Under the pieces are notes generated by a model. It was not told where the DNA came from. It searched no databases and saw only the letters and a list, made by a program, of their open reading frames with translations. From Spinacia oleracea (Eukaryota; Streptophyta; Magnoliopsida; Caryophyllales; Amaranthaceae): a stretch of 64,000 nt of DNA. The stretch spans positions 15,090,001 through 15,154,000 of the forward strand of contig NC_079489.1 in assembly GCF_020520425.1 (NCBI RefSeq). Direction: 5' to 3'. The translations under genes were made by a program, and so were the position numbers. Of the stretch, positions 4,851 through 54,124 are shown one piece after another. Every line of letters begins with the position of its first letter. The first letter of the stretch is position 1.

Positions 4851-5586
4851 AGCTCTTATAGCAGAACTTATGAGAACAATAATTCACATTAGTCTTTAAA
4901 AGTTTATAAGCATACCTCTAATTAAACTAACGTCTACTTGTGAAATTAAACATGCATGAAACCAAAGTAAACTAGAGAATGCAATAACATGTTCATACAT
5001 CATAAATAATTCAAATCCTCTACTTTCTAGTAATCATTCCAACAAACATCATTTGACAATATTAAAATTGAATTTTACTTCCAACATTTTCGATCACATA
5101 TATGATAACAGTAGTGAAAGAAAAATAACGTTCACCAGTGTATTAATTTCCTCTCGGTATTCAAATTTTTGTTTGTCTATATTTGTCTAAAGTTGTGATA
5201 AATTTACATATTGCTCATTTGAGGGGGAAAATAAACCATTGGTTATACCTAACCATGTATAAACCGGTTGTATAATAAAAGAAATTAAAAATGTATCCGA
5301 TATTGTCAATACGAATAGTACATTATACGTATAATGATTTATAATTTAGAATACTAAATATATTATTTAAATTTAGAGTATAGTTTTAGAAATTGATCGA
5401 TGGCATTATAAGCTTACAAGGAACATGCGTTAAAGATCTAGAAGAAGAGAAATGAAAGGGGAAAGACAAAATATAATGGGGCTATGAGAAAACTCTTTAA
5501 ATTAGAAATGAACTAAAACATTATTATAGTACATGTTATATACAGCAAGGTAATATAGGTGCGTGTTGGGAGACTGACAACTTATT
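4851..5586. other. Intergenic AT-rich stretch
   Basis: I see no coding sequence. The right part (5296-5458) is a duplicated block shared with 17211-17367 and is listed separately. Confidence 0.5.
5296..5458 (+). repeat. Duplicated non-coding block, copy 1 (partner at 17211-17367)
   Basis: The block runs from TCCGATATTGTCAATACGA to the run ending GAAGAAGAGAAATGAAAG. It matches 17211-17367 in the same orientation, including a long shared stretch around GATTTATAATTTAGAATACT. The partner lies 3' of an intact DUF26 kinase gene, so this copy probably marks the old 3' flank of the dead DUF26 unit. Confidence 0.8.
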
Positions 5587-8500
5587 TTACTTCTTCATGC
5601 ACATGAGTGTTCCGCTGTAAGATATAAGCATGGCAATCACAAGAACTACCACAAATATGACACTTGCGACTGGAAACCAGAGAGAAAGACGATCTTGCAA
5701 TCTTTGAGTCTTATCTTGACATACATCATCCAAATCACCGATTGTTGATGCTCGAATCTCACTGATTTTTCTATTATTGTCAATAAGTTGCACAATTGCT
5801 GCCGAGAATTTATCTACTGTAGTAGCAAATTCTGAAGGTAAATGTTTTTGGAAAGCCTAGGTGAGAAAACCCGTCATAAAATCAGTGCCTCGTCTCTTCA
5901 TCAGAAAGATATAAAATAAGAAGCAAAATATAAAATAAACTAAACAAAAATAAAACGGTGAGGCCATGACAACATGATGTATAGTATTTTTTTTTTTTTT
6001 GACACCTGCACATGATGTATAGTTAGTGTGTCTCCTCTACAACTTATAATATTTGAATTATCTGAACGCACTATAAGAAATTGTACTATTAATGACGGGA
6101 AATCCCATCGGTAAAGGTCAATAATTGTTGATTGATGTCGGGATTTTCCGTCGCGAACCCGTCATAAAAGGGGACCGTCGTTAATGGTCCCGTCGTTAAC
6201 CCGTCGTAAAAGACATTTGCGACGGTTGTTCCCGTCTTTGTTGGGTTGTTTTGCGACGGGATTTTTACCCGTCGTTATTAGGTTGTCATAAAAGATACAA
6301 ATTTTTGTAGTGACGTATTCTAACTGGAACTTATCTGAATTTGAAGGATCTTAAAAGAACTTATTTAACTTATACGAATATATATGACCTTATCAGAATT
6401 TATTTAAAGATTATTAGATTATTATTAAAGTTTTAGCCATTAGAATATTGATAATAGCTGATTAAATATAAAATAATAAAATAATTACAACGGAATACTT
6501 AGTTTTTATATTAATAATTATGTCTTTTATTTTATTTCTAATAATATAATTACTACTCCTTAATATAATTGGTTTATGTCTCACCAAAAGATAGTCCATT
6601 TATTTGTGATGTACACGTAATTTTAGAAGTGTTTATTAATTAAACTTTTCCCTTATAATTGATAATAATTAACATATTAATTAATACTTACATATAATTG
6701 ATAGTTATTAATGTCAACTAATAACCGGAAATTATTTTAATATAATAATATTAATATGATTTATTTAGGCTCCGTTCTATTCGAATTATTTTGACTGAAC
6801 TTATATTATCAGAACTTATCTGAACTTAACTGAACTTAATTAGGCTCTTTTCTGTTCGACTTATTTTGACTTTTTTAAGACAAAATAAGTTCAGATAAGT
6901 TTAGTTAAGTTTAGATAAGTTCAGAAAAAGTAAGTTTTTTCAGACATTTTCACACACAAATAAGTTTATTTCAGACAAAATAAGATTTTTCAGATAAAAT
7001 AAGTTCATATAAGTTCAGTCAAGTTTAGTTAATTTCAGATAAGTTCTTATAAGTTCAGATAATACAAGTTCAGTCAAAACAAGCCAATAGAACGAATTAA
7101 GCCTAACCGGAACTTATTTTATTTGAATAAAACTTATTTTGTCTGAAATAAACTTATTTGCGTGTGAAAATGTCTGAAAAAGAAACTTATTTTTTCTGAA
7201 CTTATCTGGACTTGTTTTGTCTGAAATAACTCAAAATAAGTCGAACAGAACAAAGCCATAATATTACATGAATATTTTATTAACTCAAACTTATAGGAAT
7301 TTTTTGGAACTTATTGGAACTTATTTAACTTATAAGACCTCATAGAACCTTATTTGACTTATAGTACCTTATTAAAACTCATCTGAACTTATAAGAACTG
7401 GTCTTATTGAAACTTATCTGAACTTATAGGTTCTGAAACTTATTTAAATAAAGTCTTATAAGTCGAGACAACAAGACCTTAATCATATAAGCCAACCTTC
7501 TAATTTATGCACATGGGAACACAATGATCACTGTATGTGCAACCTAAAAAAAATTAATAAGTGGAGGAGGAGGAGAGTGAACTAGCAACTTACAAAGCCA
7601 AATCCTGCAGATGGGAGACGAAAATGTGGAGCAAGGGTAAATTCATTACAATATTTGTCTTGGAACATCTTGAGATGATGTACCCCAGCAACAACAGCAT
7701 CAACACCGCCATTTTTGCCTCCTTTTTTTAACTTGATATACATTTCATCTTGTGACCGCAACTCCCTTAATTGTGATTCTGGCACTTGATTATAAACCAA
7801 TGTATCATTCATGAAGGCTCCTAGTCGATAGCCCACGATCGATCTTTTCCTGATTAGGTCATTCAGGTCCTTAATGTCACTAACTAGAGGTTGTGTTGAA
7901 ATGAATGAAATTTGGAGTGGCACATAACAAGCTATAATGACAAGTAACACCATAAGGACTAGTATAATCACTGCTCTTGTATACATTATGGATCCCAGTA
8001 TCGTTCCTGCATTAAGAGAATATGTCACTGAGTCTATGTACTAAAGACAGAAGAAGTAAAGTTTATTGGAAGTAAGTTTTATAGGTTAGGGCCTTAGGGG
8101 AAGAGGGGCATTAAAACAAATTACTAAACCCTAAAAATTGTGGAAGTATCAATGTTTTTTAGAAAAATTGTCAGAAACAGCCTATAGCTTCTTGCTTTTG
8201 TGAACAATTAACTTATATGTCCAGTTTTAAACAACTACTTAATGAGTTCGATTTCTTTTGATAGCACTGTGAATCCGTACACTTTATTGTTTCATAATTG
8301 ATGCAAAAATTATGAGAGAAATTGAAAATGAGAAGGAAGTGTTGGAAGTTCTTGTTGGAAAAAAGAAAAAATAAAAAGTGAGCAAATGTCCCACATGGAA
8401 ATAATACAAAGATTTCCCCTTGTTTATACTCCATCCGTCCCGTAATACTCGACCCGGTTTGACCGGCACAGAGTTTAAATAATTTAATAGGTATTAGTTG

Positions 8501-11500
8501 ATAGTGGGGTATTATTTTAATGTAGTTAGTGGTAGGTGAGTTAAGAGGTGGGGTTGGGGGAGAGTAGGGGTTGAATTTTTAATTATTTTTTGTATGGAGT
8601 AGGGGGTAGGTGGGTTAGTAGGGGTTGAGTGAAAAATAATATAATATTGTTAGAATATTTCCATTTTTAGAAACATGTCAAGTATTATGGGACGGGGAAA
8701 ATATGTCAAGTATTACAGGACAGAGGGAGCATATTTTAGTAGTTGACTACATCTTATTTGACAAGGTTGTAGGATGGCTTGGTGAACACGCGCATCAACT
8801 TGATCAGAGCGATGCATGGGGGTTAGGGATGGGCATGGGCCGGGTTTGGTGAGATCCCGACCCATATTTTTCAGGCGGACCCCATCCAATGGGTCTAGTG
8901 TTATTTTTAAATTAAAAATTTTGTCTTAGAGATTTTTTCGCGCCATTAATTTTACCGTCATTTACTATCTCATATTCACATTCGATACATAAATTATCAC
9001 AATTCGCAAATTAGTGCCAAAATACTAATGCATGAATTTATCTAATTATCCTATTTCTAATTTATAATAATTGACCGGGCACATGAGCCGGATCTGGACC
9101 GAGTCTGGGTCTGAAAATATTGGACCCAGACCCGTTTTTAAATACATGGATTCAAATCCGCCCCAGATCCATTGGGTCTCTAATAACTAGATCCAAACCC
9201 TTAAAAATGGCCCGGGTTCAACCAGGTCTGAACTGGGTCCTAGACCATGCCCATCCCTAGTGGGGGTGGGTTGTGGACAACCTATTATTCTGTGGTTAAG
9301 GTTATTGGGGACTTATTCTGTTTTAATTACGCGTTTTGTCCATGACGCGTCGCGTACATCAAAATCAAAATGGGTGCAACCATGAAGGGGTAGCGATTAA
9401 TATAGAACAATAATAATCAGGAAAAGAAACAAAAATACTATGTATTTGGTACTTACTTTTCCAGTAGACATCCCTATTCCCTGAGGGTTGTGTCAACGAT
9501 GATGCATTGTTGTACTTACAAAGTTTCCAAATCCAGAACATTACTGCAACCAAGATGCCAAAGCCCAATGTAACGGCTACAACCAGAATTATTGTTGTGA
9601 ATGGTTTCAGCACATCTCTTTCTCCCCGCAACGGTAGCAGAATACGCTCCTCGGTGTCCAAGTATGGTGTTGTAAAATCCACCCAATTCATTCTTTGGGA
9701 TAATATTGTTATATCCCCAACTGCACCGTGGAGATTCTTCTCCTGCACTTATTATAGTTTTTGCGTTAATAAGCCTATGTAAGTTCTCATCGACTTACCA
9801 ACATAGAGTTGGCTCAAGTGGTAAGCAGCTTGATGTCGCTTAAGGGAGGTCTCGGGTTCGAGCCTCGCCGTATGCAGAAACTCTTGTTGGGAGACTCACC
9901 CACCATAAGCAAGGTGTGCGACACGGGTCGGATCCGGATGTAGTCGGAGCTAAGCTCCGGTGAATCGGGTGTGCTATGCGTAAAAAAAAAAAGTTCTCAT
10001 CGACTTCTATCAAAATAATTAAGTACCCATATAAGTTTATATAAGGAAAAAATGTTACAGAGTAAGCGGATGTATAGAAATACTAGTACTCCTCGTTGTT
10101 CTACTAAGAAAAACTTCTCATAACGTATTCTTTTAGCCTCTTTTTATATTTACATACTTACATTTTCTTCCTTCGGCTCCCTCAAAATATTATCATTTTG
10201 TTTGAAAATGTTGAAACTCTATGTTGTTCACATGTGAGTAGTACCATATTAGAGAAATAGGAAACAATTAATCCCACCTATGTTCACACCACCAATCAAC
10301 TAGCAGATATTTTCACCAAACTTCTGTCTACAAAGCAGCAGAACCACCTTCTTTCCAAGCTGGGAGTGTGTTCTTCCTCCTCACTCTCAGCTTGAGGGGG
10401 AGTGTTGAGAATAGTGGCTATATGAAGCCATAAATGAAGCCCAGCCCAACATCAACAATCAGTCCATATAGCATAGCTGTTTGTTGTTTTCTAGCTATTT
10501 CATGTAATAGGTGTATCTACTATTTTGACAGTTTTCTAGTCACATGCTAAGGGAATGCTGAGGTGTCTTTAGGGCACTAAGTTTAAGGTTGATGCGCCGC
10601 CTATTTAAGGCATTGTAATGCTCATTTGCAGCACACAATTAAAATACAAATGAATGAATGAAAAGCTGGATTGAATGGCAAGAATTCTGTGTGCAATGTT
10701 CATGACTGGAACTACAAAAGTTCTCAGGGCATAATAATGGATATAAGAAATGATGCAAAACTTATATGAAGTGTTGGGCTTTTTTTATATATACTAGTCA
10801 GAAGCACGTGCCATGCACGTGTTGGCTCGACGTACATTTATAATTTTTACTACTCGTACAGAGTATTAATTAAGTTTTTTTTCTATTACGTATAACATAA
10901 AAGACATTGTTTACATCAAACAAAAGTTTATTATTCTTATTTGCAAGTTAACACATGTATATACCTTGCTCCATTAAAAACCACATGAAGCTGTTCACAT
11001 TTACACCAAAAAAAATAAAAAATACATGTACACTCTCCATTTCTTTTTAAATGCATCATTTTAACTTTCACAATGTTTATATAGTATCTTTAATTTGACT
11101 TGGATATTTTACTAATATATACGGAGTAATAATCAAATTTTATTATGTAAAATGGTGTGTGTTGCAAGTGAATGACAATATTGTAAATAATAAACCAAAT
11201 AAAGGGTATAATAGGCCATAAAAAATGATGCAAAACTCATATTGAGTTTCGGCTTTTTTAAGTAGAGAGTAGAGATATATATATAATAAGATAAAAAGAG
11301 ATATTGGATGTAGTAAGAATTTGTGAAGAAAGAAAGGGATTGTAAACGTATGCACCTTATCCTGCACGTCCAGGAGCATTTGATTAAAACTGCCTTTCAA
11401 GGCCCCATTGGGCATAGTGTAGGGAACGAATTTGTACTTAAACGAAGAGCCAACGATCACAGCCGCTGCTTCGAACATCTTGATGGAGAAACCAGTGTAG

Positions 11501-11691
11501 TTCTGTATCTCTCCGTCGCTCGATTTTATGACCCTTACAAATTCGTTCAACTCATCTCTAACAGGAACAGCAATTAGTAGTTGTTGTAGCGACATTGTCG
11601 TTTCGTTTGTGCTATCTTGACCCATTACACGGATGGTTATGATGCAAATTGTTAAGAGTGATATCAGAAAGAAAATACCAGAATTCTTCAT
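5587..11691 (-). CDS. Short glutamate-receptor-like protein, 434 residues, four exons
   Basis: Exons (minus strand) are 11691-11356, 9742-9457, 8006-7594 and 5856-5587. All junctions fit GT-AG and the spliced frame closes at 434 residues, about half the usual plant GLR length. A signal peptide is followed at once by ligand-binding lobe S1 (LLIAVPVRDELNEFVRV, GFSIKMFEAA, AVGDITILSQR, VDFTTPYLDT). Membrane segment M1 lies at about residues 162-184, M3 at about 219-236 (ending IIACYVPLQISF), lobe S2 contains GGVDAVV, and the last membrane segment is at about 404-425. The amino-terminal ligand-sensing domain is absent. The exon 2-3 join leaves no WFSFST-type pore loop between M1 and M3. The M3 gate motif, usually SYTASLTS in plants, is heavily altered. 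The introns hold a SINE, a copia remnant, a Stowaway, a hAT-like element and a CACTA MITE. Family assignment is firm; channel activity is doubtful. The plus-strand paralog is at 18487. Confidence 0.85.
6069..6312 (-). mobile_element. CACTA-type MITE with 3-bp target duplication, GLR intron 3
   Basis: The element starts CACTATAAGAAATTGTAC and ends with TTTTTGTAGTG. It is flanked by ACG on both sides (6066-6068 and 6313-6315), as expected for CACTA transposition. Its interior carries repeated GACGGG/CCCGTC motifs. It belongs to the same family as 20413-20638, 27225-27503 and 42019-42297 and is more diverged than the last two. It has no coding capacity and lies in intron 3 of the minus-strand GLR. 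Confidence 0.85.
6769..7258. repeat. Foldback MITE cluster of CTTATCTGAACTTA motifs
   Basis: Inverted ends are visible at two nested levels. GGCTCTTTTCTGTTCGACTT (6843) pairs with the sequence ending at 7258. An outer GGCTCCGTTCTATTCGAATT (6769) pairs in part with sequence near 7075-7105. The interior is built of degenerate CTTATCTGAACTTA words on both strands, and similar words spread over about 6340-7480. This looks like one or two related non-autonomous DNA elements inserted into each other within GLR intron 3. I could not fix a target duplication. Confidence 0.6.
8429..8729. mobile_element. Stowaway-type MITE in GLR intron 2
   Basis: The left end is CTCCATCCGTCCCGTAATAC after a TA dinucleotide, and the right end is the inverted match GTATTACAGGACAGAGGGAG. 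These are typical Stowaway (Tc1/mariner-type) termini. There is no coding sequence. Confidence 0.75.
8824..9259. mobile_element. hAT-like foldback element with GGGTCT-rich interior, GLR intron 2
   Basis: The termini are TAGGGATGGGCATGG and its inverted match CCATGCCCATCCCTA. The flanking 8-mers are ATGGGGGT on the left and GTGGGGGT on the right, an 8-bp duplication with one mismatch, which suits hAT. The interior is not a transposase remnant but a degenerate series of GGACCC/GGGTCT words. It resembles the elements at 21801-22606 and 63600-63998. Confidence 0.65.
9797..9990 (+). mobile_element. tRNA-derived SINE with 16-bp target duplication
   Basis: A tRNA-like head with an A box (TGGCTCAAGTGGTA) and a B box (GGTTCGAGCCT) leads into a tRNA-unrelated body and a 3' A tract. 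The 16-base direct repeat AAGTTCTCATCGACTT flanks it at 9781-9796 and 9991-10006. It lies in intron 1 of the minus-strand GLR. The exact target duplication suggests a fairly recent insertion. Confidence 0.9.
10260..10690 (+). mobile_element. Copia remnant: RNase H tail, polypurine tract and 3' LTR start
   Basis: The sequence encodes the usual copia C-terminal stretch (NQLADIFTKLLSTKQQNHLL). A polypurine tract (GCTTGAGGGGGAG) follows, and then an LTR starting at TGTTGAGAATAG near 10402. The LTR end is not fixed. The upstream part of the element is absent, so this is a broken fragment in intron 1 of the GLR gene. Confidence 0.75.
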
Positions 11692-12204
11692 CTCTTTTTT
11701 CTTTTTTTTTCTCCCTAATTCCTGTGCAGGATAATGGTAAACGCTTTTCTTTTAAGGTCTGCTTCTGTTGTTATAGTCTGAAGAATGAAGATGTCGTTAA
11801 AAAAGTCGCCATCACTCAACTTGTTTGTGGAGCTGTAAGCGAAATCTTCAACCGAGATATATCAGCGAATTGTCTAAGTCAGCTCTAATTATTTAGCAGT
11901 AGTGCATTATATGATCGACGTTTATTAATTGTAGTATTATATATGTTAAATTCAACTAATTATAGAAAGAAGACCAAAGTTAGCTTGAATTCTTATACTT
12001 CTTATCCTTTCAAGTTGCGACATTAACTATCCAAAAAAAGACTCTGTAAGCTGATTTACAACTGATACTGAATATTCCAAGAATATTTTGTACTAAATGC
12101 TTAGCATATTGTAATATATGCACAAACATGGATCTCAAATAATTCCTTTTGGTCTAGTAGCAAAGGCAGGAGGTATATATGAGTAAATCAAATCTAAGTA
12201 CAAT
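11692..12204. other. Upstream region of the minus-strand GLR gene, no other gene seen
   Basis: This stretch lies 5' of the GLR start codon (11691) and probably contains its promoter and leader. A long pyrimidine tract (CTCTTTTTTCTTTTTTTTTC) sits at about 11692-11712 next to the start codon. No convincing TATA box was picked out. Confidence 0.4.
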
Positions 12205-13079
12205 AGGGGGCGGATCCAGGAATTTATGTATGGGGTCCAAAAAAAATATATGATTTTTTTTTTCCCTTTTAGTGAGTTAAAGTTGAAAGGTAAATAATAA
12301 ATATTATAAACGTAATAATAAAATACGTGAAGAATTTATGAACTTTAATTTTGGATTTTCATAACAATAGTCCAAATTATAATAATAACTTGGCGCGATT
12401 TCAATTTAAAATGGAAAATGAGTTTTTCAAACTTGAAGGAGATTTACATTATTACAATAGTTGTCTTTGAACAAATAGCACATACAAACGCTAATTAAAA
12501 GAAAAAGTAATATCATTTTCAACGCTTGTGGGGCATTATAAATCTATATACGAAGTAATTAAATAGATCTCTAAAAAGTTCAAGGCATGCAACTATAAGT
12601 CTATAAAATGGATTATAAATATACATTACTAGAAACATATTTTATGGAAATTATAAAATATAATTGAAGAAAAAATTAACTAAACGTTTTTGTGTTTTTT
12701 TAAATCAAATTAAGTTATGAATCATTATAGAAACACCAAATAAAAAATAAAAAGTGATAAGAAAAGATGACTTACAAAGGGAAAAGGAAAAAAACAAAAA
12801 ATACATTGAAGAATTTATAAGGATCAACAAACGACAAGTAAAAGATAAAATAATTTGTTTTTAAAAACCTTATAATGCATCTTACGAGGATTCGAACCTA
12901 GGTGGAAATTAGTACAACAACCATCATCCCAAAGGGGTTTCATTAAGATTATTGTAAGTTAACTATATATATTTTAACTAATTTAAGTGCAATTAATTAC
13001 CTGAACATCAGTTTAGCAACTTTTTTTTGAAAATAATAGGTCCCTTCGGTCCCCTGTAGCGCTTAATAGGTCCGCCCAT
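12205..13079. mobile_element. Non-autonomous hAT-like element
   Basis: The left terminus AGGGGGCGGATCCAGG roughly inverts the right terminus AGGTCCGCCCAT. The flanks carry AGTACAAT (12197-12204) and GGTACAAT (13080-13087), an 8-bp duplication with one mismatch. The AT-rich interior has no coding sequence. Related termini (GTGGCGGAGCCAGG) occur at 28024-28489 and near 63471. Confidence 0.6.
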
Positions 13080-13588
13080 GGTACAATTGAACGACTTGTT
13101 GCATGTAGCTCTACATGTTATCGGGTGTATGTAACTTCTACCAATTGGGAGTATATATGTACGGTTAGGTCACGAATTTGAATTCATGTCCCTCATTATT
13201 CCCTTATTGGAATAGGGTGTACCCACGTTCACCAAGCAAAGTTGGTGAAAGGGTCTTTTTCTTGTTTGTCAAATTGACTTTTTTGTTTTCGGCAACTAAT
13301 AAGATGGCCATTTCAAATATTGTAATTAGTCAACTTCGCACCAAGGCCGAGTAAGATGAAAGGGACTTTTTCTTCTTCTTTTTTTCTTTTTCTGCAGCTT
13401 TGAGTACTTGGAGTGGATTCAGAGGGTCTATTGTGTAGAAAATAATCAGAACTCGTCAAATTAAACACTTCCCAAAACAAAACAAAAAAACATAGACTAG
13501 TAGGAAATCGAGGTCCTGATGTACAAACTTAACCTCGTCAGAATTTCAGTCGTTACAATAACTAGATCAGACAATCATCATCTATATT

Positions 13589-16500
13589 ATGTCTGAAAAA
13601 GCGAATTTTCTGAGGCAGATGGTCGGCCTCATCATCATCAACTTGTTACAGTCAGCCACACACGGTGCTTCTTCGACAGACAACAACAATAGTCCTCGAC
13701 ATTTGAAATATGATTGTTACTACCACGCCGGCTTTCCCTACAGCACGGGCAGCACATTTGAAGAAAACCTAAACAACATTTTCCCAGAAATTTCTGACAA
13801 CGCCTCGCGGTTGTCCTACTCTAAACGCAGTAGCAACGACACAGGTATTGACAAAGTGTTTGTTCATTACTACTGCAGGGGTAATATCGTTATCCATACA
13901 TGTCATCGATGTGTCGAAGCTGCGGTGAACACAATAAGACAGAAATGCAAATTTAGGAAACAAGCGATAATTTGGTATGAGGAATGCACCTTCCGTTATG
14001 CTAACCACACCATCTCCTCCCTTGACGAGGAACATCCAGATTACGTCTACACAAACACAACCAGTTTGGTGAGCGAACGTCTTAATCCATATAGACAGGA
14101 TTTCGACGACACAATGAACTCTCTCATCAATGATACGGCATATAATGGCAATCCACCTGGCTTTTCAACAAAAGAAGTGAACCTCTCTGAATTGTCCGAT
14201 ACACTACGAGGTCTTGAACAATGTAGTCCCTTTATTAGTAGTATTCTTTGTGAAAAATGCCTAAAGATTGCTTTTAATAAGATGGATTTATGGTCCAAGA
14301 CTATGGTTTATTTGCCGAGTTGCTTTATCAGGTTCGATATATTTCAACTATCATCACTACCTTCTCCATCCCCAAATCCAGGTAAGAAAAACCTTGCTTG
14401 CATTTGTACGATAATATGAAAGCACCAAAAGGAGGCGCGGCGGCCTTACCTTTGTGTTTGAAATTTCTCCTAAACTTTTTCTCTTCATTTCTGTGATAGA
14501 TGGTCAGCGGTATAAGATCCTTCTTGCCGCCTTGTTACCTGTCATTGTAATTTTATTACTTCTTGGTGGCTTTTGGTTATGGAGGCGACGACGGATTTCA
14601 GGTAACTTAAAACTATAACATTATGCACAATACTATTTCATTGCCGTGGAAAATTATCAGTTATATACTTATATTGCTCTGACATATAGCTATCAAACTT
14701 AAAATATAGCTTTGACATTTTAGACGGGAAATAGATTATTTCATCGATCACCAACTTTGTTGCATAATTGGATTTTGTTGGTTTTAAAAGAAATTTGTAC
14801 AAACTCCAAGAAATTAAAACGTTAAGGTCTAATTCTAGCCTTTCTGTATATAAGTAACAGGGCACACCAATAGTACAGAAGAAGCTGCAGAAGTGGAAAC
14901 TAATAGTGCAACAGGGGAAACTAACATTGAAGAAGCTTGGTTGCAATTGGCTCGGTTTACTTATTCTCAGGTAAAGGACATGACAAATGATTTCAATAGA
15001 AAACTAGGTGAAGGTGGCTATGGAATCGTTTACTATGGTCGCTTGAATGATGACCACAGAGAAGTCGCCGTCAAGGTGCTTTCAAATGATGCTCCTAAGC
15101 AATTTACCAATGAGGTTTGTAATTTTTTGCAGCACCGGCCAGTTTATATATGTTCATGAACACACAATTTAGACGGTGGACCATAGTGCACAGTGAGCAT
15201 GGTGTACCTTAAGAACACTTGTATATAATTAAAAGAACATCCGACTACGTGAAAAGAACCTGGATATATTTCTTTTCATATTTTTAATAAATAGTGAAAT
15301 AATATGTTATTTTTTATAATAAAAAAGTGAAATATTATATCGCATATTCTTTTGTCGTAGTGTTATGTTCTTTTATTTATGCACATGTGTTCTTTTGGTG
15401 CACATGGTGCACCATGGTCCATAGTCCACGGATTGAACACACCTACTGTAAGGAGGTGATCCAAATAACAAATATAATTCTTCTGGGATAGGTTAAAGTG
15501 TTAGGAAGAATCTATCACAAAAACTTGGTTTCTCTGATTGGATACTGCGAAGAAGGAACTACCAACTTGGCACTTATTTATGAGTACATGTCTGGAGGGG
15601 ACTTGAAAGCTCTTCTTTCAGGTGGCACGCTTAATTTAATTTGTAATTAATTTTGATTTAAGTGTTGCATCAAAAACATATATATCTATATGCTATACAT
15701 TGTCACATTGTTGTTCTTGTCCAATAGCTTTTAAGATCTTATGCTCTCGTTGATCAGAACATTCAGGTGTAGTCGTAAGCTGGAAACGGAGACTTTCAAT
15801 TGCATTCGACACTGCTCAAGGTGAATACACAGCTAGCATTCTCTCTATCTTTACCGAAATTTCTTTATGAGACTAGCTAATACATCCAACATACTTCTAT
15901 GTTGCTACAAAGCTGCTTCTTAATTATAAGAATTCTACCATTTACCCTGTCTTTGTTTCTACACTCACATCAAACTAAAGTAGCGAGTCATAGGAAATTC
16001 AATCATAAATCAAAATCTGCTACTATTTGAAGGGAGTGACTACTTTTCGTGCCTATTGTTCTGTAACAGAGGATATTAATTCATAAATCATAATCCGCTA
16101 CCATTTGAAGGAAGTGACTACTAATTCGGAATGTATACCATCTTGTGACTATTTTTTTCAGTAAGATTTGTGGTTAAAGCGTTAAAATCAACTCGATCAT
16201 TATCTATATTTACAGGATTGGATTATCTGCACACTGGTTGCAGCCCACCTATTGTCCACAGAGATGTAAAACCGGCAAATATACTTCTAAATCAAAATTT
16301 TCTCCAGGCAAAAGTAGCTGATTTTGGCTTCTCGAAAATATTCCCAGCTGAATATGTCTCCAAACTTGAGACTAGGGTCATTGGAACAACTGGTTATCTT
16401 GATCCTCAGTAAGTCCATTCTCCCAACTCCAATCCATATGTATTGTTTGTCATTTCGAGATGTAACAATAATTTAGGACTGCTGCAGGTACCATTTAACC

Positions 16501-16899
16501 GGGCAGGTGAATGAAAAAAGCGATGTTTACAGCTTTGGAATTGTTCTGTTCGAGCTCATAACAGGGAAATCTGCAATCATAAAATACACAAACACTCATT
16601 TGGTTCAATGGGTAACGCCTCTCTACGAAAGAGGTGACATAGGCAGCATATTGGACCCAAGAATACGGGTTGAGGTAGGCGAAAACTACAACACCATTTG
16701 GAGAGCAACAGAGCTAGCTAAGCAATGTGTTGAGCTAGATGCAGCACATAGGCCAACAATGAGCAACATTGTTATTGAATTGAGGGAGTGTTTGGCTATG
16801 GAGAATGTGGATGTCGAGTGTTCGAGCTCCGTTACTACCACGATGGAGATGATGACCGCCCCAGTTTCAACTACATCGATGGGTCCACAACCCCGGTAG
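13589..16899 (+). CDS. DUF26 receptor-like kinase with LRR-I-type kinase, 648 residues, seven exons
   Basis: Exons are 13589-14381, 14500-14601, 14861-15114, 15492-15621, 15758-15820, 16216-16408 and 16488-16899. They join in frame to 648 residues with no internal stop. The order is: signal peptide; two DUF26 domains with canonical C-X8-C-X2-C (C96/C105/C108 and C211/C220/C223); one membrane helix ([20 protein letters not shown]); a juxtamembrane RFTYSQV; and a kinase with [20 protein letters not shown] and DFG. The kinase text, such as [30 protein letters not shown] and [19 protein letters not shown], is characteristic of LRR subfamily I (malectin-type) kinases. DUF26 kinases (CRKs) normally have a different kinase type. 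The Glu of the APE/DPE motif reads Gln (codon split CA|G across introns). The product is likely a plasma-membrane receptor. An approximately 85-base duplicated stretch lies in intron 5 (15990-16130). The paralog at 23083 has the same seven-exon structure. Confidence 0.9.
15990..16130 (+). repeat. Tandem duplication inside intron 5 of the DUF26 kinase
   Basis: Two diverged copies of a block containing TTTGAAGGGAGTGACTACT (second copy TTTGAAGGAAGTGACTACT), each preceded by TCATAAATCA-type sequence, lie about 85 bases apart. It is a local duplication of no obvious function. Confidence 0.65.
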
Positions 16900-17210
16900 T
16901 AATATAATGGTGATACTTTTTATTAAATAGGTCTTAAACGCATCCAGTATACAATAAATTTATCGTACATCAGAATAGCTTTTAACCGGCTTTTAATAAT
17001 TTTATAATGTTATGATTACTTTTTATTGTATGATAATTTTAAACGGTTAGATGGTTTACCTTTATAATTATGATTTTCCGGAAAGAAAAAAAATTTATCA
17101 CTAGAAAATAAATAAATTTTACTTATATCGAAGTACTTTTTAAGCTTTTTTTGGTAACTTTACATCCACATTAAATACAATATTTATAACACTTGTTGTA
17201 AAAAAAAAAA

Positions 17211-17367
17211 TCCGATACTATCAATACGAAACAAATTATATATTGATTTATAATTTAGAATACTAAATATATTATTTAAATTCAGAGTATACTTTTAGAA
17301 AATGACGATGGCATTATAAGCGTATAAGGAAAATGCGTTAAAAATCTAGAAGAAGAGAAACGGAAAG
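17211..17367 (+). repeat. Duplicated non-coding block, copy 2 (partner at 5296-5458)
   Basis: This block is a same-orientation match to 5296-5458 that begins TCCGATACTATCAATACGA and ends with the GAAGAAGAGAAACGGAAAG run. It lies about 310 bases past the stop codon of the intact DUF26 kinase gene. Confidence 0.8.
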
Positions 17368-17402
17368 ACTTAATTGGAGCCTATTTGCCCTAGAATTACA
17401 TA

Positions 17403-17663
17403 CTCCCTCTGTTCTTAAATATTAGTCATGTTTTAACTTTTCAATTCGTTTCAACTCAATATTTAAACGTAAATATCTCCATATACGTATGTAAAAAAAA
17501 TATATAAAAATTTAACATTGTTGTACTACACATTAAGACGAACAAAATAAAATCTCACGTGAATATGTTTTGAAATACGTATTGGAAAGAAATTAGAATA
17601 TTCTCTTCAATTGCGAATAGTGTCAAGATTCCTAATGGGACTAATATTCGAAAACAGAGGGAG
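17403..17663. mobile_element. Stowaway-type MITE
   Basis: The inverted termini are CTCCCTCTGTTCTTAAATAT and the reverse of ATATTCGAAAACAGAGGGAG (shown here with the usual imperfect match). A TA dinucleotide lies on each side (17401-17402, 17664-17665). There is no coding sequence. Confidence 0.85.
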
Positions 17664-18004
17664 TACATCTATCCGACATTCTTTTTTAATACTATTGGTG
17701 CTAATTAATCTGATCCGCATCTGGGTTTTTATATGTTGGAACATTGTGATAGTTATATTTTTATCCTTCTCATTTTGATTTTGAAAGTGAATGGTAATGA
17801 GTTATAATAATTACACAAATCTATTAACATTTGTACGAATTGGCATGAGTTTTTCTTCTCAAAATTACATTCAAAATCGCTACCCTTACCGTCATCTATT
17901 ATCAACTACTAAACGGTCGACCTATATAGCTTGCGTAATTGAACAATCTCACTTCTAAGTTTTAATCATGTATTGTGTACTACTAATGCTTCTTCTTTAC
18001 TAAT

Positions 18005-18175
18005 TGTTCGTTGGTTTAGTGGTGATTGAGGCTGAACTTGGTAGGGAGAACTCGTGTTCGATCCCCAGCAATAACAATTGGGAGGGGACTGGAACCTATC
18101 CACCCAGAAATCGCCCTGAATCTGGATTAGCCCTAAGGGTGAACCGGGTGCTAACACCAAAAAAAAAAAAAAAAA
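18005..18175 (+). mobile_element. tRNA-derived SINE
   Basis: An A-box-like TGGTTTAGTGGTGATTG and a B-box GTGTTCGATCCC (about 18055-18066) are followed by a body and an A tract of about 18 bases. It belongs to a different family from the SINE at 9797. I did not find a clear target duplication. Confidence 0.7.
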
Positions 18176-18486
18176 GGGGTCGATCTTTTGACATTTGAAG
18201 ACCATGTCAAGCCGTTATCACCTACAGAGTACTACGTTCTTGTCTAGATGTTGACTAAGAATGTGTCACACATGAAGGAAGGAAATAGAGTAGTGCACTT
18301 GTTAATATATTAATGACATCGTGTTTAGCAACTCATTAAGTTTGTTTCATTTGCTTTAATTAAATAAGAGGGTGGTTGGGGTTTAATAAATCCATTAGTG
18401 GTTGGGGTTTAATAAATCCTCGATCAATCTTGTACTAAAAAATACTGATTTAAGAAAATTTTGGAAATTAATTAAGAGGTTTCGAA

Positions 18487-21008
18487 ATGACGATATACAA
18501 GAATAATGGTTGTGTTATGCTCCTAAGAGTTATGGTGGTGGCCTTGATACCCATGATTGTAATGGGTCAAAATGGAACAATCGATGCGAGGAACCAGACA
18601 TCTACAAAACTAAGAATTTTGATTCCAGTAAGACCAGGGCTCACTAAATTTGTAGCCATCGAACGACATCCTATCACTGGGGTGCAAAACTTCAGTGGTT
18701 TTGCAATCGAAGTTTTTGAAGAAATCGTAAGTTTTGGACTTCCTTCTCCAGTTCCCTACGAGTTCATCCCCTTCGCCAATGCCGATGGCGTAATGAATGG
18801 CACTTTCGATGATATGCTCAAAGAGGTCTCCTCTCAGGTACGTATGGTTCTCCCATCCTGACCTCTTGCTATCTCTCTAGTTTAGAGCTGGGTAGGCGAT
18901 AATAAATGATGATGAATCGATGAGCCTTTATACATGATTTGTTTTTATTTTTGAAACCGGAAAAAAAGTCACATGCATACATCAATATCCATGATAATGC
19001 AACTTTGAGAGGATTAACTAACCCACAAATCATGAATCAGTTGTTGACCTCGATTACCTAAAATAAACATAAACAAAAACAAAATCAAAATAAATTGTCG
19101 AATATGGTTATGAAATTGGAGTTCAAAGAATTTTATTGTTTTTTTATAACTCTCATTTACATGACAATTACAATTAGTAGGGCTATGAGGGCGCAGTGGG
19201 GGAGATATCGATACTCCATTACAGGACACCGTGGGTGGATTTTACACTACCATATCTAGACAGTGAAATATCAATGTTGATTCGAATGAATCAGCAACCA
19301 ATCGGAAAGGGAGGAATTGCATTAGCATCAGCCACTAAGTACATTGTAGCTACTACACTTGCCTTTAGCTTTGTTGTTGCAATCTCTTTCTGGATTCTGG
19401 AATACAGAACTGACAAGAATGCTTCACAATCTAATGACACAAGCTCTTCCGTGCAATCTACAGGGATCGTGTACGACAATTTGCGGAGTAAGTACCTTAA
19501 TGACATATTTACCGCCTTTTAAGTTTCACGTTTTTGTATTTACCACCTTAATTTTATGAAATATTTTAATCACCACCTCTTAACGGTTTTCATCCAACTT
19601 TTGGTCAATGTGTCCTATTTAACTAACTTCTTTAATTGGAAATCTAATGAAAGAGGGAGAAAATCAAAGAAGTTGGTTAAGGGGGCGCATATGGATGAAA
19701 AATGAGATGAAATCCGTTAAAAAGTGGTAAATGTAAAAAATTTCATATAATTAAGGTGGTAAATATGAAAATACATTGTAAAAGTGGTAAATACAAAAAC
19801 GTAAAATTTAAAAGGTGGTAAATATGAAAAAATCCTGATGTAAATGATGCAAATTTGTTACTATAAAGAGGTAGATGTATCGATCTATTTGTAACGATTT
19901 CGTTAAAAATGTGGTGCAGGAGAGATCTTGAGATCAATAACACAAACAAGACTAGTGGTGATTCTGTTTTTTATGGTGATGCTGGTGTTATTGGGTTGTT
20001 ATACAGCAAGCCAGACATCATCAATTACTGCACAACGTCGAGGTGGTGGTCGTATCAAGAACATAAACCAACTAATTAGGAATAAATTAAATGTGGGGCA
20101 TCGAGAAGGATCATTTGTAAGAAACTTGTTGATCCAAAAAGGTATTCAAGAGTCGAAGCTAATAAGCCTTAATTCAGAAGACGAAATGACCGAGAAGTTA
20201 TCTAAAGGAACTGCAAAGGGTGGTGTTGATGCTATTTTTGGGGATTCCCCTAATCTGAAGCTTTTCCTTGCTAACCATACGGACTATTGTGATCGATTCA
20301 CTATCGTCCCTGAAGTCACTATCGATACAGTTGGATTTGGATTTGTAAGAGTACATCCTCCTTCCATTTTCGTAATTTCTTTTTTGATACCTTTTCTCAA
20401 TAAATTGTTTCATTAACGACGGAATATTCAGTCGCTAATAGTGATGGGATTTTCTGTTGCGAACCTATCATAAAAGGGGTCGCCATTTTGGAAAATTCCG
20501 TCATTACCCCGTCGTAAAAGACATTTGTGACGGTGTTCCAGTCTTTATTTAGTTGTTATCCCCGTCGCAAAAGGCATTTTCGACGGGATTTTTGGCCCGT
20601 CAATATTGGGTTGTCAAATGACTCAAATTCTAATAGTGATTTTCCTGTTTATAACTATATATTGGATTTGAGTATTAATTTGTTTCTTTTACGTAGGCCT
20701 TCAACAAAGAATCTTCGTTAGCAAAAGAATTTTCAGAAGGATTATTGAAATTGATAGACACCGGGAGATTGGCAAGTATCCAACAAAGGACTATTGGTAG
20801 CTTGCAGACGTGTGCTGGTGATGATGATGATATTGGAGACTCTAACCAGCAGCTTCTGGATTCTGATAGTCTATGGATCCTGATTGCAGGGGCTGTTGCC
20901 GTGTTTTTTCTCATGACTATCATCATATTATTGTACTGTGGACTCAGACACAATGGTAGGAAAAAGAAAGCAATTGCCTACCCTTGCTATCTGCTTCCAT
21001 GCTGCTAG
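18487..21008 (+). CDS. Short glutamate-receptor-like protein, 464 residues, four exons
   Basis: Exons are 18487-18837, 19181-19487, 19920-20344 and 20697-21008. They join in frame to 464 residues, with intron phases identical to the minus-strand paralog. A signal peptide leads straight into ligand-binding lobe S1 (LRILIPVRPGLTKFVAI, GFAIEVFEEI, AVGEISILHYRTPWVDF). M1 lies at about residues 169-190 and M3 at about 231-247, ending GCYTASQTSSI, which is close to the plant SYTASLTS gate. Lobe S2 (GHREGSFVRNLLI, GGVDAIFGDSP) follows, and the last helix is at about 420-443. The amino-terminal domain is missing. Only about 40 mostly polar residues separate M1 from M3, with no WFSFST-like pore loop. 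A foldback element fills intron 2 and a degraded CACTA MITE sits in intron 3. Membership of the GLR family is clear. Whether it conducts ions, alone or with partners, is not. Confidence 0.88.
19504..19826. repeat. Foldback MITE in GLR intron 2
   Basis: The left arm CATATTTACCGCCTTTTAAG, continuing through CACGTTTTTGTATTTACCAC, is inverted at the right end (GTGGTAAATACAAAAACGT through AAAAGGTGGTAAATATG). A second inner pair of TTACCACCTTAATT-type arms also folds back. It has no coding sequence and fills most of intron 2. Confidence 0.8.
20413..20638 (+). mobile_element. Degraded CACTA-type MITE in GLR intron 3
   Basis: The GACGGGATTTT, CCCGTCGTAAAAGACATTTG and CCCGTCGCAAAAGGCATTTT words match the family at 6069, 27225 and 42019. 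The left CACTAC end is lost and the right end is only CTAATAGTG, so this is the oldest of the four copies. It sits in the same intron number as the 6069 copy, but in the opposite orientation relative to its gene. Confidence 0.8.
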
Positions 21009-22606: not shown

Positions 22607-23082
22607 GCATCCGTTGTACAAATGAATAACTGTTATATTAATACAATAATAACTTTTAAACATTGGGATAAATTTACACCAACCTTACAATACTTATTAT
22701 ACACCGGATGTAATCAAGAGTTTGTGTGTGGAATTAATAATTAAGATAGCCCGTGTCTACCAAGAGAAATGGGTCGTGCAGGACACCATAATATAATTGA
22801 GATGGACTAATTCTAAGATGCTATTAGTACTTAGTGCCTTAATGGTACAATTTTGTAGAAAAAAGAGTTGATAATTGACTCAATTAGAGTAATCTGGCTT
22901 CTCTTGTATAGAGATTGAAAAGGTCTACTTTAATTATTAATTAGAGTTATCTAATTGATCACTTGGTCTACAACCTGAAAAACGTTAAGCGCGTATGTCG
23001 AATCATCAAATGTCAAGCAATTACAGAAGTAATATCCATGTCAACAATGGTGTCATCATGGATGCAATTTGTTTCTTCATTC
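22607..23082. other. Upstream region of the second DUF26 kinase
   Basis: No gene seen. It presumably holds the promoter and leader of the kinase gene. An in-frame ATG at 22963 would extend the product by 40 residues, but that stretch has no counterpart in the paralog. Confidence 0.4.
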
Positions 23083-26837
<3,755 letters not shown>

Positions 26838-27224: not shown

Positions 27225-27503
27225 CACTACAAGAATTTGTATCTTTAACGACAACCTAATTACGACGGGTCAAAAATCTCGTCGCAAAAGCCTTTTGCGA
27301 CGGGGCTAACAACCAAACACTGACGGGAATAACCGTCGCAAATGTCTTTTACGACGGGTTTACGACGAATTTACGACGGGATTTCTATTAACGACGGCCC
27401 CCTTTTATGACGGGTTCGCGACAGGAAATCCCGTCGTTAATCAACGATTATTGGCCTTTCGCGACGGGATTTCCCGTCGTTAATAGTACAATTTCTTGTA
27501 GTG
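27225..27503 (+). mobile_element. CACTA-type MITE with 3-bp target duplication
   Basis: This 279-base element runs from CACTACAAGAATTTGTATC to ACAATTTCTTGTAGTG with CTC on both sides (27222-27224, 27504-27506). It is nearly identical to 42019-42297, so both moved recently. The GACGGG/CCCGTC words in its interior are arranged on both strands. It has no coding capacity and needs a transposase from elsewhere. Confidence 0.9.
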
Positions 27504-28489: not shown

Positions 28490-31400
28490 CGTAGAACTCC
28501 GTATAAATGCTCATGCTACTTGTTTCTTTAACAATATTGACATGTATAAAGTTATTTCCTTGTATCATATTAATCCACACATATTATGTCTCTTAGATAG
28601 ATGTGCATATAACTTATAAGTATACTAAAATTAATACATTATATTTCTTTTCAGCAAGCTTTTCCTTTCGACATTTTTCTGAACTTTTTGTTGTCCATAT
28701 GTACCAAAATCTAAATGTAACAACGTACGTGTATATATAAGGAGTTTTATTTTGTGTAAAGCATAAAAAAATACTATAACATGTGAATTTGCATACAATT
28801 CAATGATACATAAGAAAGGATTGAGAATAATCGCTATGTTTATTTATTTTTTTGAAAGGAAAGTCGAGCTAGTTCATTAATCCAAGGACAATGTGTCCAT
28901 AAGTACATACGGAGACATCTCTGAAGGGCAGTGATTTTCCTAGACTTGCTCAATCCCAAAAGAAACTAGTCTCGCTAAGTGATGGGCTACAAAATTTCCA
29001 TCCCTTTTTACATGTGACCAAGAAATAGAATTAAAAGAAACACTCCAAGCTAAGATGTCACCTAATACCGAGTCAAGGTCAGATAAGTATATGGCACCTT
29101 TCGACAACCGGGTAATGAGGAGTTGGCAATCCGATTCCAGAATAACATTGGTGAGATTGTACCGAGTTCCAAGCTTGATCGCATTGGCCAATGCTTTAGC
29201 TTCTGCGATCTCTGCAGGCCACCACGCCCGAACCCTCCTGCATGAAGCAAAGAGCACATTACCATGTGAGTCCCGGGCAACGACCCCCATACCTACCCAC
29301 CCTTCTACTGCAAGGGAAGCATCTACATTCAGCTTTATCACGCCACAAGGAGGGGGTACCCATCGGTTGGAGCTACGTCTTGGCATGGCACTGGGTTGCC
29401 TATAGATGCAATGTGCGTACTTGCCTTGTTCCTCTGCTAGACGCTGCACACGAGCAGCTAATACCCCATTGGGGGTTGCCTTGCTCTCGAACACGAACTT
29501 GTTGCGCTCTGACCATATTACCCACGCCAAAATGGCTGTTCTTTGTTGCAGTGCTTTGTCGAATTTCTTCCAACTCGCCACGAACTCATACAACGTGTCT
29601 GCATTCTCCCACTTAATCAGGCTTGAACATCCACTTTCTGACCACAGATCCTTCACCCTCACACAATCAAAGAGTACATGACCCGCACTTTCTTCGTGAG
29701 TAGTACACCATGGGCATCTAGCTTCGTCAGTAAGGTGGCGGTGTTTCAGCAATGTACGAACAGGTAGCGTGCCCGTGCCTAGGCGCCACAAGAAGTGTCG
29801 CACCTTTGGTTGCACATCCATTCCCCAAATGTGTGACCATGCCTCATGTAAGGCCTCAAAATCCAAGCCCTTGCCAAGCATATAGGCTGTTTTTGTGGAG
29901 TAACAGCCATCCTTCGTATAAGCCCATGTTAACTCATCCTCGGGTGCACGCCAGCTAAGGGGAATAGCTAGGATGCATTTTCTATCCCTCTCATTGAAGT
30001 GCTCCTCCAGTAACTCATGTCTCCATTCCTTTGTTTCCATATCTATGAGTTCGTTGACATACTCAAACATCCCAACTGGATCACTCACAACAAATCTGCC
30101 TTGCTCATCACCTACCCATGGGTCCTTCCAGATGTTTATTTTTGTCCCATTTCCCACCCTCCATATGACACCTTCTTTGACAAGAGCTTTGGCACTCCAC
30201 ACACTCTTCCATGCGTAGCTACAAGCATAGCCCAAAGAGGACTCGAGAAAGGAGCAATGTGGATAATATTTCGCCTTCATTACCTTCCCTAGCAAGGTAT
30301 TAGTGCCGTTAACCAATCGCCATGCCTGCTTCCCAAGGAGAGCGTCGTTGAACACAAACAGGTCTTTAAAGCCCATTCCTCCAGCACACTTAGGTTCGCA
30401 AAGGGCCTTCCAGCTTCGCCAATGAATTTTCTTTTTACCTGCATCAGATCCCCAAAAAAACTTTGCCATAGCCGCTTGGATATCATTGGTAACAGACACC
30501 GGAAGCTTGTATATTCCCATTAGATAGGTTGGAATAGCTTGGATAACTGATTTCAGTAAAACCTCCTTTCCCGCCCTCGAAAGCAACTTCTCTTTCCACC
30601 CTTGGAGTTTTTTCCATATTCTATCAAGTAGAGCTCCAAACACTGCTTTTTTCGATCTACCCGCAACTGTAGGTATACCCAGATACTTCTCATGCCGATC
30701 AACTTGCCTCATTTTCAAAAACCCTACCAGTTCCTCTTTGCGCGCCATACTGACTCCCCTACTAAATGATATTTCCGACTTTTCAACGTTAATTTTCTGC
30801 CCGGATGCTACTTCGTACTGGTTGAGTATATCAACTATCATTGAGCATTCCTGTCGGTTGGCTCTAGTGAAGAGTAGGCTATCATCTGCAAAGAGAAGGT
30901 GAGAGATTTCTGGCCCGTGTCGACTAGCCCTTACACCATGAATCTTCCTTTCCTGCACTTTAGTATGCAACATACAAGAAAAAGCATCCGCAACTAAAAT
31001 AAACAAGAACGGGGAGAGAGGATCTCCTTGACGTAGACCTCGAGATGGTGAAACCAAACCACAAACTCCACCATTAATAATGAATGAATAAGACACGGTT
31101 GACACACAATCCATAATCAGATTTACCCACCTACCATCAAAGCCCATGATGAGAAGTAATTTTCGTAAGAAGCCCCACTCGACTCTATCATAAGCTTTAC
31201 TCATATCTAGTTTCATAGCAATGTAGCCTTTACGGCCTTTAGCCCTCTTTTTCATCGTATGGAACAGTTCTAAAGCAATGAGAGCATTACCTGTTATCAA
31301 CCTCCCCGGGACAAAAGCACTTTGGTTCTCCGACACAATGTTAGGCAAGATAGATTTTAGTCTCATCACTAGGGCCTTCAAAACTAATTTGTACAAGACG

Positions 31401-32824
31401 TTGCACAAGCTAATAGGCCTAAACTCAGAAATCAATTTCGGAGACTTACACTACTACAAATCGCGCCATTTTTCGACGCTTTTTTGCCGTTTTTCGACGC
31501 TAAAGGGCGTTGAGAAATAATTTCTCGACGCTGAAGCACAGCGTCGAGAATTCGGGCGTAGAGAATTTCTCGACGCTCTACGTCGTCGATAACCTCGACG
31601 ATTTAAGGCGTCTACCTTCTTTTCACTACACATTTCACCGTCGACATTCTCGACACACTTTGGCGCCACGGAAATTTTTATCGACACATATTTTTGACGA
31701 GAATGGCCTTTGCGGGTTATTTAAAATTTTTGTGGGAATTTCATATTGACATATAATGGCGTCGAGAATTATGTTATGTAAAAAGAAAAAAAAAATATAC
31801 ATTTGTCTTTACTTCACAACCACATTGAGCTTACAAAATTGTATTAAAAGGTTAAATAAGGTAAACCCAACCAAATATGGTCCGAATGTTGTAACTCATT
31901 CATATAATATAACGTATAAATTACAAAATTATGAGACTTACACGGATTTGTTCAAAATTGACATGCTAACTAATAACTGGACATTGTAAACTAATATTTT
32001 GCTTATTTTGAGCGGTCACAATAACCTCCATTGGAAACGTGCTGCAATAATTTCCATCTCCCTATTATGCAGCCAGGATACCCGAATTTACACTTCCACA
32101 CGATCAGGTACCTCACATACAAGTAAGTACCTCCATCTGATACACTTCTGAACCGGATAGACAAACAGATCGAACTTGTTGTTTCCAAGTTTTACGCCTG
32201 AAGTAAAACAACGCAAAGGTCTAGAATGAGTAAAATCCAAGGAAATAGTAACTATAAGAAAATCAAATGTCATCATATGCTTAATTTTCCTCGTCAATTC
32301 AAATGATAGTTCACAAATAAAACAGCAAGAGCGAACTAATGACGTCACCAAAAGTAGCAGATATGAGAAAAAAAATGTCACAAAGACAATCAAATACATG
32401 CAATTATATGTTATACGAGCTGGATCAGTTGAAAGATTCAGGACAATACATTTTCCAATATAATAACCAAAAAATTGATAAGAGGACAAAAGAGTGAGAC
32501 TTGGGCATTTCAGCTAACTATCGCAAAAAAGCAATGGGGCGATTCCAGCCTTCCAGGGAACTAACCAATACTGAAAATAGTATGTGAAAACAAGAGCATA
32601 ATCCAGCTCTCTATAAAAGCAAAAGGAAGCATAGGGCTATGTTTAAAGTTAGATTAGCGGCTTCTAGTAATTCTATGCATATCGTAGACTAGAAAGAGAA
32701 GAACCAAGTGTAAGGTGGTGGCGTGCTCAAAATGGCAGTCACTTAATAACTCAATGGAGTTCTTCTAAATCCGACAACAAGAGGAACAAAGTCTTATGGA
32801 GCGGCTGAAATGCCTGAAATTTTG

Positions 32825-41370: not shown

Positions 41371-42018
41371 ACCCCTAAAGTTTTCTTGGTAATAGATGGG
41401 ACTAACTCTTTCAAGAGTTAGATTCCGCAACGAAATATGGTGGATGGTTCATCACATGAATAAACATTTTTTTAATTAATGAAGCTTTGTTGGGTGTGGG
41501 ATGCTTTAAGTCCTCAAATTCTCACACACTATTTTCTCTTGTTATGCATTTTTTGTGTGTGTAACGTGGTTGTTTCTTTTTCTTGTATACAAATCCAATA
41601 TTTTATGAGAAATTTATTGCAACTTGTATTATTTGGACTTGATTTGTTAGTGGAAATTTAGTTTCTTCCTAAACTGTGATATTAGTTCTAGATATACACC
41701 TATGAGATATATATATGATCATCCTAAAATGAAGTTGGTTAATGTCCCAAATATTTGAAAATGAGGAAAAGCAGATGAAAAGGCTAAAAGGTAAGAGAAA
41801 ACCTGATTTTTTTATTTACTGATGTCAAGCGGCCACAAAAAATAACTAGGTTAATGGGTGCGATCTTAAACTACATCTAGGGTAATTTAATACTTAAAAA
41901 AGTAATAAAAAAATAATCCTATAATTTAATGTATATAAATACGTACTTATAGAGTATAGAATAAAGTATGAATTATGTAATACCCCTAATTTGTCTCTTT
42001 TTATTATCAATTACTTAT
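41371..42018. other. 3' flank of the MADS-box gene
   Basis: No gene seen. AT-rich sequence leads up to the CACTA MITE. Confidence 0.4.
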
Positions 42019-54123: not shown

Positions 54124-54124
54124 A

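Follow-up and report, generated by a model that had tools for sequence, protein, structure and literature searches.

There is still no agreement on what plant glutamate receptor-like (GLR) proteins sense or on how they conduct. As far as the excerpts of the papers cited here by PubMed Central (PMC) accession go, the pore loop is not resolved in the structure of AtGLR3.4 and gating by amino acids is uncertain in plants (PMC11479355), M2 is among the most conserved parts of ordinary GLRs, some sugarcane GLRs have no membrane motifs (PMC9506223), and proteins lacking the amino-terminal domain (ATD) make up 11.03% of plant GLRs, GLR1 and 2 accounting for 74% of these (PMC4995503). Loss of the ATD has been interpreted as elimination of redundancy, and one such pear gene was silent in every sample (PMC4995503). 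ItbGLR31 of a sweet-potato relative consists of Lig_chan alone (PMC10764598). Here we describe two paralogous genes, A and B, in a stretch of 64,000 nucleotides of Spinacia oleracea (assembly GCF_020520425.1, contig NC_079489.1, positions 15,090,001 to 15,154,000 of the forward strand), which is called the window below and in which all positions are counted from its first letter. Comparisons of the encoded proteins with AtGLR3.4 suggest that A and B are real, probably non-conducting relatives of GLRs that may act as partner subunits or sensors.

Gene A consists of four exons on the minus strand (11691-5587) encoding 434 residues, and gene B of four exons on the plus strand (18487-21008) encoding 464 residues, the exons of both having been rebuilt from the sequence. 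Both genes encode, in the same order, a hydrophobic N-terminus, S1, M1, M3, S2 and M4. The rebuilt exons bear out the initial annotation of the window, which had proposed two diverged paralogs on opposite strands with this arrangement, and reproduce its protein lengths and intron-2 limits. Exon 1 of A (11356..11691, minus strand) encodes a signal-peptide-like hydrophobic N-terminus (residues 1-24) followed by the start of S1, as does exon 1 of B (18487..18837, plus strand; residues 1-27). Exon 2 of A (9457..9742, minus strand) encodes the remainder of S1 with the ligand-binding arginine R129 (codon 9694-9692), M1 (9592-9521) and then a polar stretch at the place of the pore loop, and exon 2 of B (19181..19487, plus strand) correspondingly encodes R132 (codon 19223-19225), M1 (19340-19408) and, from 19409 onwards, the polar stretch; the two exons score 21.5 and 20 bits, respectively, with Lig_chan-Glu_bd (cut-off 30). 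The end of the linker, M3 and the bulk of S2 are encoded by exon 3, which lies at 7594..8006 on the minus strand in A (M3, 7974-7909) and at 19920..20344 on the plus strand in B (M3, 19952-20020), with Lig_chan scores of 19.2 and 27.7 bits, respectively (cut-off 30.8). Exon 4 of A (5587..5856, minus strand) carries the end of S2, Cys391, M4 (5682-5617) and the stop codon, and exon 4 of B (20697..21008, plus strand) carries the end of S2, Cys400, M4 (20871-20939), a basic C-terminal tail and the stop codon; the tail is short in B and very short in A. The simple hydropathy rule by which the membrane helices were called finds segments corresponding to M1, M3 and M4 at residues 155-187, 208-246 and 400-433 of A and at residues 171-191, 222-252 and 414-447 of B.

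BLASTP aligns A and B over 450 columns at 35.6% identity, and over 423 aligned codons the identity is 38.3%. The intron phases 0, 1 and 0 are common to A and B, all six modelled introns follow the GT-AG rule, and the lengths of corresponding exons differ by 15, 21, 12 and 42 nucleotides, all of them multiples of three. Because a gap in a protein alignment always counts as a multiple of three nucleotides, the evidence here consists of the exon lengths and phases only. The first donor site of A is AAG/GTGCAT, located 6 nucleotides past the site homologous to the B donor, with the frame kept; at that homologous site A reads CAG/GATAAG, with GA and not GT. The frames, intron phases and splice sites had all been taken to be conserved; the open frames and equal phases are so, and the splice sites are not in every case, the first donor of A having moved by 6 nucleotides.

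Among solved structures, in a collection whose plant GLRs belong to clade 3 only, the best match of both proteins is AtGLR3.4 (PDB code: 7lzh), with residues 40-437 of B aligned on residues 492-876 (E = 9.9e-42) and residues 38-372 of A on residues 494-824 (E = 6.8e-22). Domains of other plant GLRs come next, along with NMDA and delta receptors of animals. The whole B protein exceeds the Pfam cut-offs of Lig_chan (37.2 bits; cut-off 30.8) and SBP_bac_3 (27.0 bits; cut-off 26.4), and the whole A protein exceeds that of Lig_chan-Glu_bd (32.9 bits; cut-off 30), with Lig_chan in whole A (23.6 bits; cut-off 30.8) and Lig_chan-Glu_bd in whole B (29.4 bits; cut-off 30) staying below; none of the single exons of A and B reaches any Pfam cut-off. 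On these alignments, A and B belong by descent to the GLR and ionotropic glutamate receptor superfamily and have a homologous, clam-shaped ligand-binding domain (LBD), composed of S1 and S2, that is split by M1-M3. A tblastn search of the window with A, B and AtGLR3.4 gives only the eight exons of A and B at E below 1, the remaining hits having E values of at least 1.5, and with residues 492-876 of AtGLR3.4 nothing beyond these exons appears below E = 3. Neither tblastn of the window nor Pfam searches of selected open reading frames (ORFs; sets of 10 and 9) reveals a further GLR copy in the window. Searches of non-plant genome contigs gave 82 pattern matches for the A/B/AtGLR3.4 alignment and 12 for residues 492-876 of AtGLR3.4, none confirmed, a result uninformative on plants; viral contigs gave 57 and 5 pattern matches, respectively, none confirmed, and the DNA of gene B had no match among plasmids, these two collections covering no plant genomes.

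The linker between M1 and M3 differs from that of AtGLR3.4. In the place of the pore segment WFSFSTMFF of AtGLR3.4, both A and B have a polar sequence, and no M2 pore loop is recognized. The hydropathy maximum over 13 residues in the linker falls from 1.69 in AtGLR3.4 to 0.39 in A and 0.11 in B, and the number of aromatic residues from 8 to 4 and 1, respectively. The linker is 38 residues long in AtGLR3.4, 37 in B and 32 in A, which on the aligned sequences means that the pore loop is swapped for other sequence and not simply cut out. F662 and F663 of AtGLR3.4, a pair at the filter entrance in a model, and R666, modelled at the narrowest point of the pore (PMC11479355), align with D203/V204 and K207 in A and with Y215/D216 and R219 in B; W655/F656 align with T/Q in A and V/Q in B. 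The alignment is loose here because A and B resemble AtGLR3.4 in the pore part no more than shuffled sequences do, the real score being matched by 2877 of 5000 shuffles for A and by 1607 of 5000 for B. The proposed absence of a pore loop between M1 and M3 is supported by the polar replacement; of the short polar linker that had been described in its place, the polarity is confirmed and the shortness is not.

Between A and B, the part of the linker encoded by exon 2, which corresponds to the pore, shows no significant similarity (867 of 5000 shuffles are as good globally and 362 of 5000 locally), and the eleven linker residues after intron 2, encoded by exon 3, are matched by only 1 of 5000 shuffles. 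Divergence of the replaced stretch is as expected if it now forms an unconstrained cytosolic linker. We considered whether a single pore replacement before the duplication was proven by the similarity of the whole linker, which 0 of 2000 shuffles equalled, and rejected this, as that similarity stems from the exon-3 part alone. Since the two genes have no significant similarity in the exon-2 pore part, a pore lost just once, in their ancestor, would be a matter of parsimony only. Intron 2, at 8007..9456 on the minus strand in A and at 19488..19919 on the plus strand in B, is the only place where a pore exon could have been missed. A missed exon at this place had been raised as a caveat in the initial annotation. 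Intron 2 of A holds 28 open, phase-compatible candidate exons, the best of which has a pore-segment score of 25, a value that 15 of 60 shuffles attain, and intron 2 of B holds no open, phase-compatible candidate exon, so that no pore exon above chance is present in A and none in B.

Both gene models also support the proposed lack of an ATD. The matches to AtGLR3.4 start at its residue 492 or 494, and S1 directly follows the N-terminal hydrophobic segment, which is placed by hydropathy at residues 1-26 of A and 6-30 of B. The N-terminal stretches of the two proteins score higher in alignment than all of 2000 shuffles, a similarity that would also be expected from two separate losses of the ATD behind one ancestral signal peptide. 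B has an in-frame TAA 18 nucleotides 5' of its ATG. In A the frame is open for 60 nucleotides 5' of the ATG and contains an acceptor-like CCTGCACAG, read by eye, and so a 5' exon is less firmly excluded for A. No ATD family was found at E values up to 1 in the four sense-strand upstream ORFs of at least 60 residues, two per gene, a length limit that leaves out shorter exons.

The ligand pocket is altered in both proteins. The pocket motif was taken from PMC11479355 and was placed by us on AtGLR3.4 as D570, T572, R577, F729, E773 and Y776, together with R501. The corresponding residues are D, T, R, F, G, H and R in A and E, S, R, F, D, N and R in B. A thus keeps four of the six motif residues (D, T, R and F), with Glu replaced by Gly and Tyr by His, and B keeps two (R and F), with D-to-E, T-to-S, E-to-D and Y-to-N changes, three of the four being conservative. 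The carboxylate-binding arginine in S1 and the plant-specific arginine are kept in both, the glutamate for the amino group is shortened to aspartate in B and its acid is gone in A, and the tyrosine is lost in both. Aspartate is typical of NMDA receptors at the acidic site of lobe 2 (PMC12147327). B could still bind an amino-acid-like ligand, since the arginine and an acidic residue are kept, and A probably cannot bind an amino acid in the usual mode. Because the pocket is altered in A and B, ligand binding is not to be assumed; of the suggestion that these proteins bind ligand without conducting, the lack of a pore segment supports the second half, and the changed E773 and Y776 contacts make the usual amino-acid binding uncertain. 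The M3 gate motif SYTAxLxxx reads CYTASQTSS in B, with six of nine residues as in AtGLR3.4, and CYVPLQISF in A, with only two of nine. Both proteins have cysteines near C786 and C841 of AtGLR3.4 (residues 327 and 391 in A, 343 and 400 in B). A disulfide between these two cysteines is known from GLR structures.

A pairwise codon model gives a dN/dS of 0.44 between A and B, with a gain of 25.1 in twice the log-likelihood (2 lnL) over dN/dS = 1. By region, dN/dS is 0.30 in S1 (2 lnL gain, 11.2), 0.36 in S2 (13.0) and 0.40 in M1-M3 (4.8); the S1 and S2 lobes are under purifying selection. Differences between A and B amount to 48, 35 and 54% at codon positions 1, 2 and 3, respectively. In a neutral simulation that took the coding sequence of B as the ancestor and ignored insertions and deletions, 0.50, 0.65 and 0.80 substitutions per site produced differences of 36, 43 and 49%, bracketing the observed 45%, and means of 21, 25 and 29 stop codons in the pair; not one of 2000 runs at each divergence (0/6000 in total) was free of stops. 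Neither A nor B shows the stops, frameshifts or dN/dS near 1 of a pseudogene. The genes have not been decaying neutrally since the duplication that separated them, a statement that covers the time since the split and not the latest past; the earlier argument that diverged sequences with kept frames speak against decay is thus upheld by dN/dS and by the neutral simulation. Identity between A and B is 10/22 in M1, 11/23 in M3 and 7/24 in M4, and the greater conservation of M1 and M3 is weak evidence that may fit packing of these helices.

Taken together, we lean slightly towards A and B being maintained and non-conducting, either as partners or as stand-alone sensors. The initial annotation had put forward modulators, decoys or co-receptors, roles that are inferred. 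The role that ranks as likeliest, though it is put forward tentatively, is that of a non-conducting partner of ordinary GLRs. A and B would be membrane proteins whose LBD faces outwards or into a lumen, and the hairpin of M1, linker and M3, which is without a filter, would offer no conduction path of its own. Packing on ordinary GLRs through M1, M3, M4 and the LBD may then alter the assembly, gating or trafficking of the partner channel. Several observations weigh against this. For a receptor under constraint, a dN/dS of 0.44 over the whole protein is high, and the two ends do not differ significantly from neutrality (dN/dS 0.52 with a 2 lnL gain of 1.6 for the C-terminus with M4, and 0.82 with a gain of 0.1 for the N-terminus). 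The first donor of A is weakened or moved, and its gate motif is mostly changed. Exon 3 of B alone, aligned with exon 3 of A, does not yield a confident predicted fold, with a mean predicted local distance difference test score (pLDDT) of 52.9 and a predicted template-modelling score (pTM) of 0.30. In animal receptors, much of subunit assembly is attributed to the ATD (PMC3483616), and its absence from A and B weakens the case for co-assembly. Against a stand-alone sensor speak the changed lobe-2 contacts, E773 and Y776 of AtGLR3.4 reading G315/H318 in A and D328/N331 in B. Such a receptor or decoy, whose LBD would sense or soak up a small molecule outside the cell without any GLR tetramer, and which would signal by way of its tail and its hairpin in the membrane, if it signals at all, is unlikely. 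It would explain why S1 and S2 show the clearest selection, why the S1 arginine and the plant-specific arginine are kept in both, and why the parts for assembly and conduction, the ATD and the pore, are both gone; besides the altered lobe-2 contacts, it has against it the short tail of B, the very short tail of A and a conservation of M1 and M3 above what a mere anchor would need, although that difference is small.

We also consider it doubtful that A and B are slowly decaying tandem copies. Decay would account for the losses of the pore loop, of pocket residues and, in A, of the gate motif, for the changed first donor of A, for a moderate dN/dS with neutral-looking ends and for the repeats within the introns, and it would agree with the interpretation of ATD-less GLRs elsewhere as loss of redundancy, the unexpressed pear gene included (PMC4995503). 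However, two frames have stayed open at about 45% nucleotide divergence, at which 21 to 29 stops would be expected under neutrality and none of the 6000 simulated pairs stayed clean, and dN/dS is below 1 in S1, S2 and M1-M3 over the time since the split. Incompleteness of the gene models, with an upstream ATD exon or an intron-2 pore exon missed, is quite improbable: the open upstream frame of A with its acceptor-like site would permit it, but intron 2 holds no pore exon above chance in A and no candidate at all in B, tblastn with residues 492-876 of AtGLR3.4 has no other hit in the window at E below 3, the four upstream ORFs of at least 60 residues contain no ATD family, B has its in-frame stop 18 nucleotides upstream, and an ATD placed upstream would make an internal helix of the signal-like N-terminus. 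Very improbable, too, is that A and B are working channels with a private polar pore, in which the linker of canonical length in B would line an unusual path. The 37 residues of the B linker against 38 in AtGLR3.4, R219 at the position of R666, with K207 in A, and the six of nine gate residues in B are in keeping with such a pore, but there is no hydrophobic or aromatic re-entrant segment, and the stretch is not significantly conserved between A and B, unlike M2 of ordinary GLRs (PMC9506223).

The window also contains other genes and repeated or mobile sequences. Pieces of Stress-antifung (DUF26) receptor-kinase genes, a kind of gene named CRK, alternate with the GLR genes at 2312-2614, 13562-16896 and 22945-26834, with a fragment before A, one between A and B and one after B. 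A 166-column match of 86% identity joins 5287-5452, downstream of A, with 17202-17360, upstream of B. One repeat occurs in four copies that are 71-97% alike (6068-6313, 20398-20640, 27225-27503 and 42018-42297), and two of these, lying in the third introns of A and B, point in different directions when read along their genes, suggesting separate insertions. A young long terminal repeat (LTR) retrotransposon occupies 42469-54646, with 522-bp ends that are 99.2% identical and AAAGT on both flanks, as read by eye; it contains an unbroken gag-pol-like frame of 1949 codons on the minus strand and a plus-strand ORF matching Transposase_28. The window further contains a long reverse-transcriptase ORF (28943-31450) with RVT_1, zf-RVT and RVT_3 in an order like that of long interspersed nuclear elements (LINEs), pieces of a Mutator-like element (MULE)-type transposase (58774-62370) with DBD_Tnp_Mut and MULE domains followed by a SWIM zinc finger, and a single-exon MADS-box ORF of 179 residues (40831-41367; SRF-TF, 52.3 bits).

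If GLRs without a pore loop exist in nature, sensing would be separated from conducting in them, and they would be ready-made non-conducting subunits for assembly tests. Surveys in which the pore-domain model serves as a filter may also miss members of the family. The survey in PMC4995503 discarded proteins without PF00060, and such a filter could drop genes like A because A lies below the cut-off of that model. These considerations lead to a wider proposal, whose chances we put just short of even: plants may keep GLR pseudo-channels that have neither pore nor ATD, that were diversified by duplication, that would act through the LBD as non-conducting partners or sensors and that would be missed by surveys requiring a full Lig_chan domain. 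Plant GLRs without an ATD are already in print; searches of the open-access PubMed Central literature turned up no paper describing maintained plant GLRs that lack a pore loop.

The closest system of known structure is AtGLR3.4, with which S1, M1, M3 and S2 of A and B align in order, as does M4 in the match of B, and with which both share the ligand-binding arginine of S1, the plant-specific arginine and the cysteine pair. They differ from it in having no ATD, a polar sequence instead of WFSFSTMFF, changes at E773 and Y776 and a gate motif of which B keeps six and A two of nine residues, so that two features of plant GLR channels, the ATD and the pore loop, are missing from A and B by this alignment. 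The other ATD-lacking plant GLRs resemble A and B in the absence of that domain, and no loss of the pore loop is described for them in the excerpts of PMC4995503 and PMC10764598. Many insect ionotropic receptors (IRs) likewise have no ATD. IRs are relatives of glutamate receptors that form heteromers with co-receptors and in which the S1 arginine or the S2 acid, the latter altered in A and B too, is often changed, but they have a re-entrant pore loop (PMC12147327), which is not recognizable in A or B. Bacterial GluR0 also combines an LBD with membrane helices and has no ATD (PMC11479355); it differs from A and B in its potassium-selective pore, where they have no pore loop, and in the absence of M4, which they possess.

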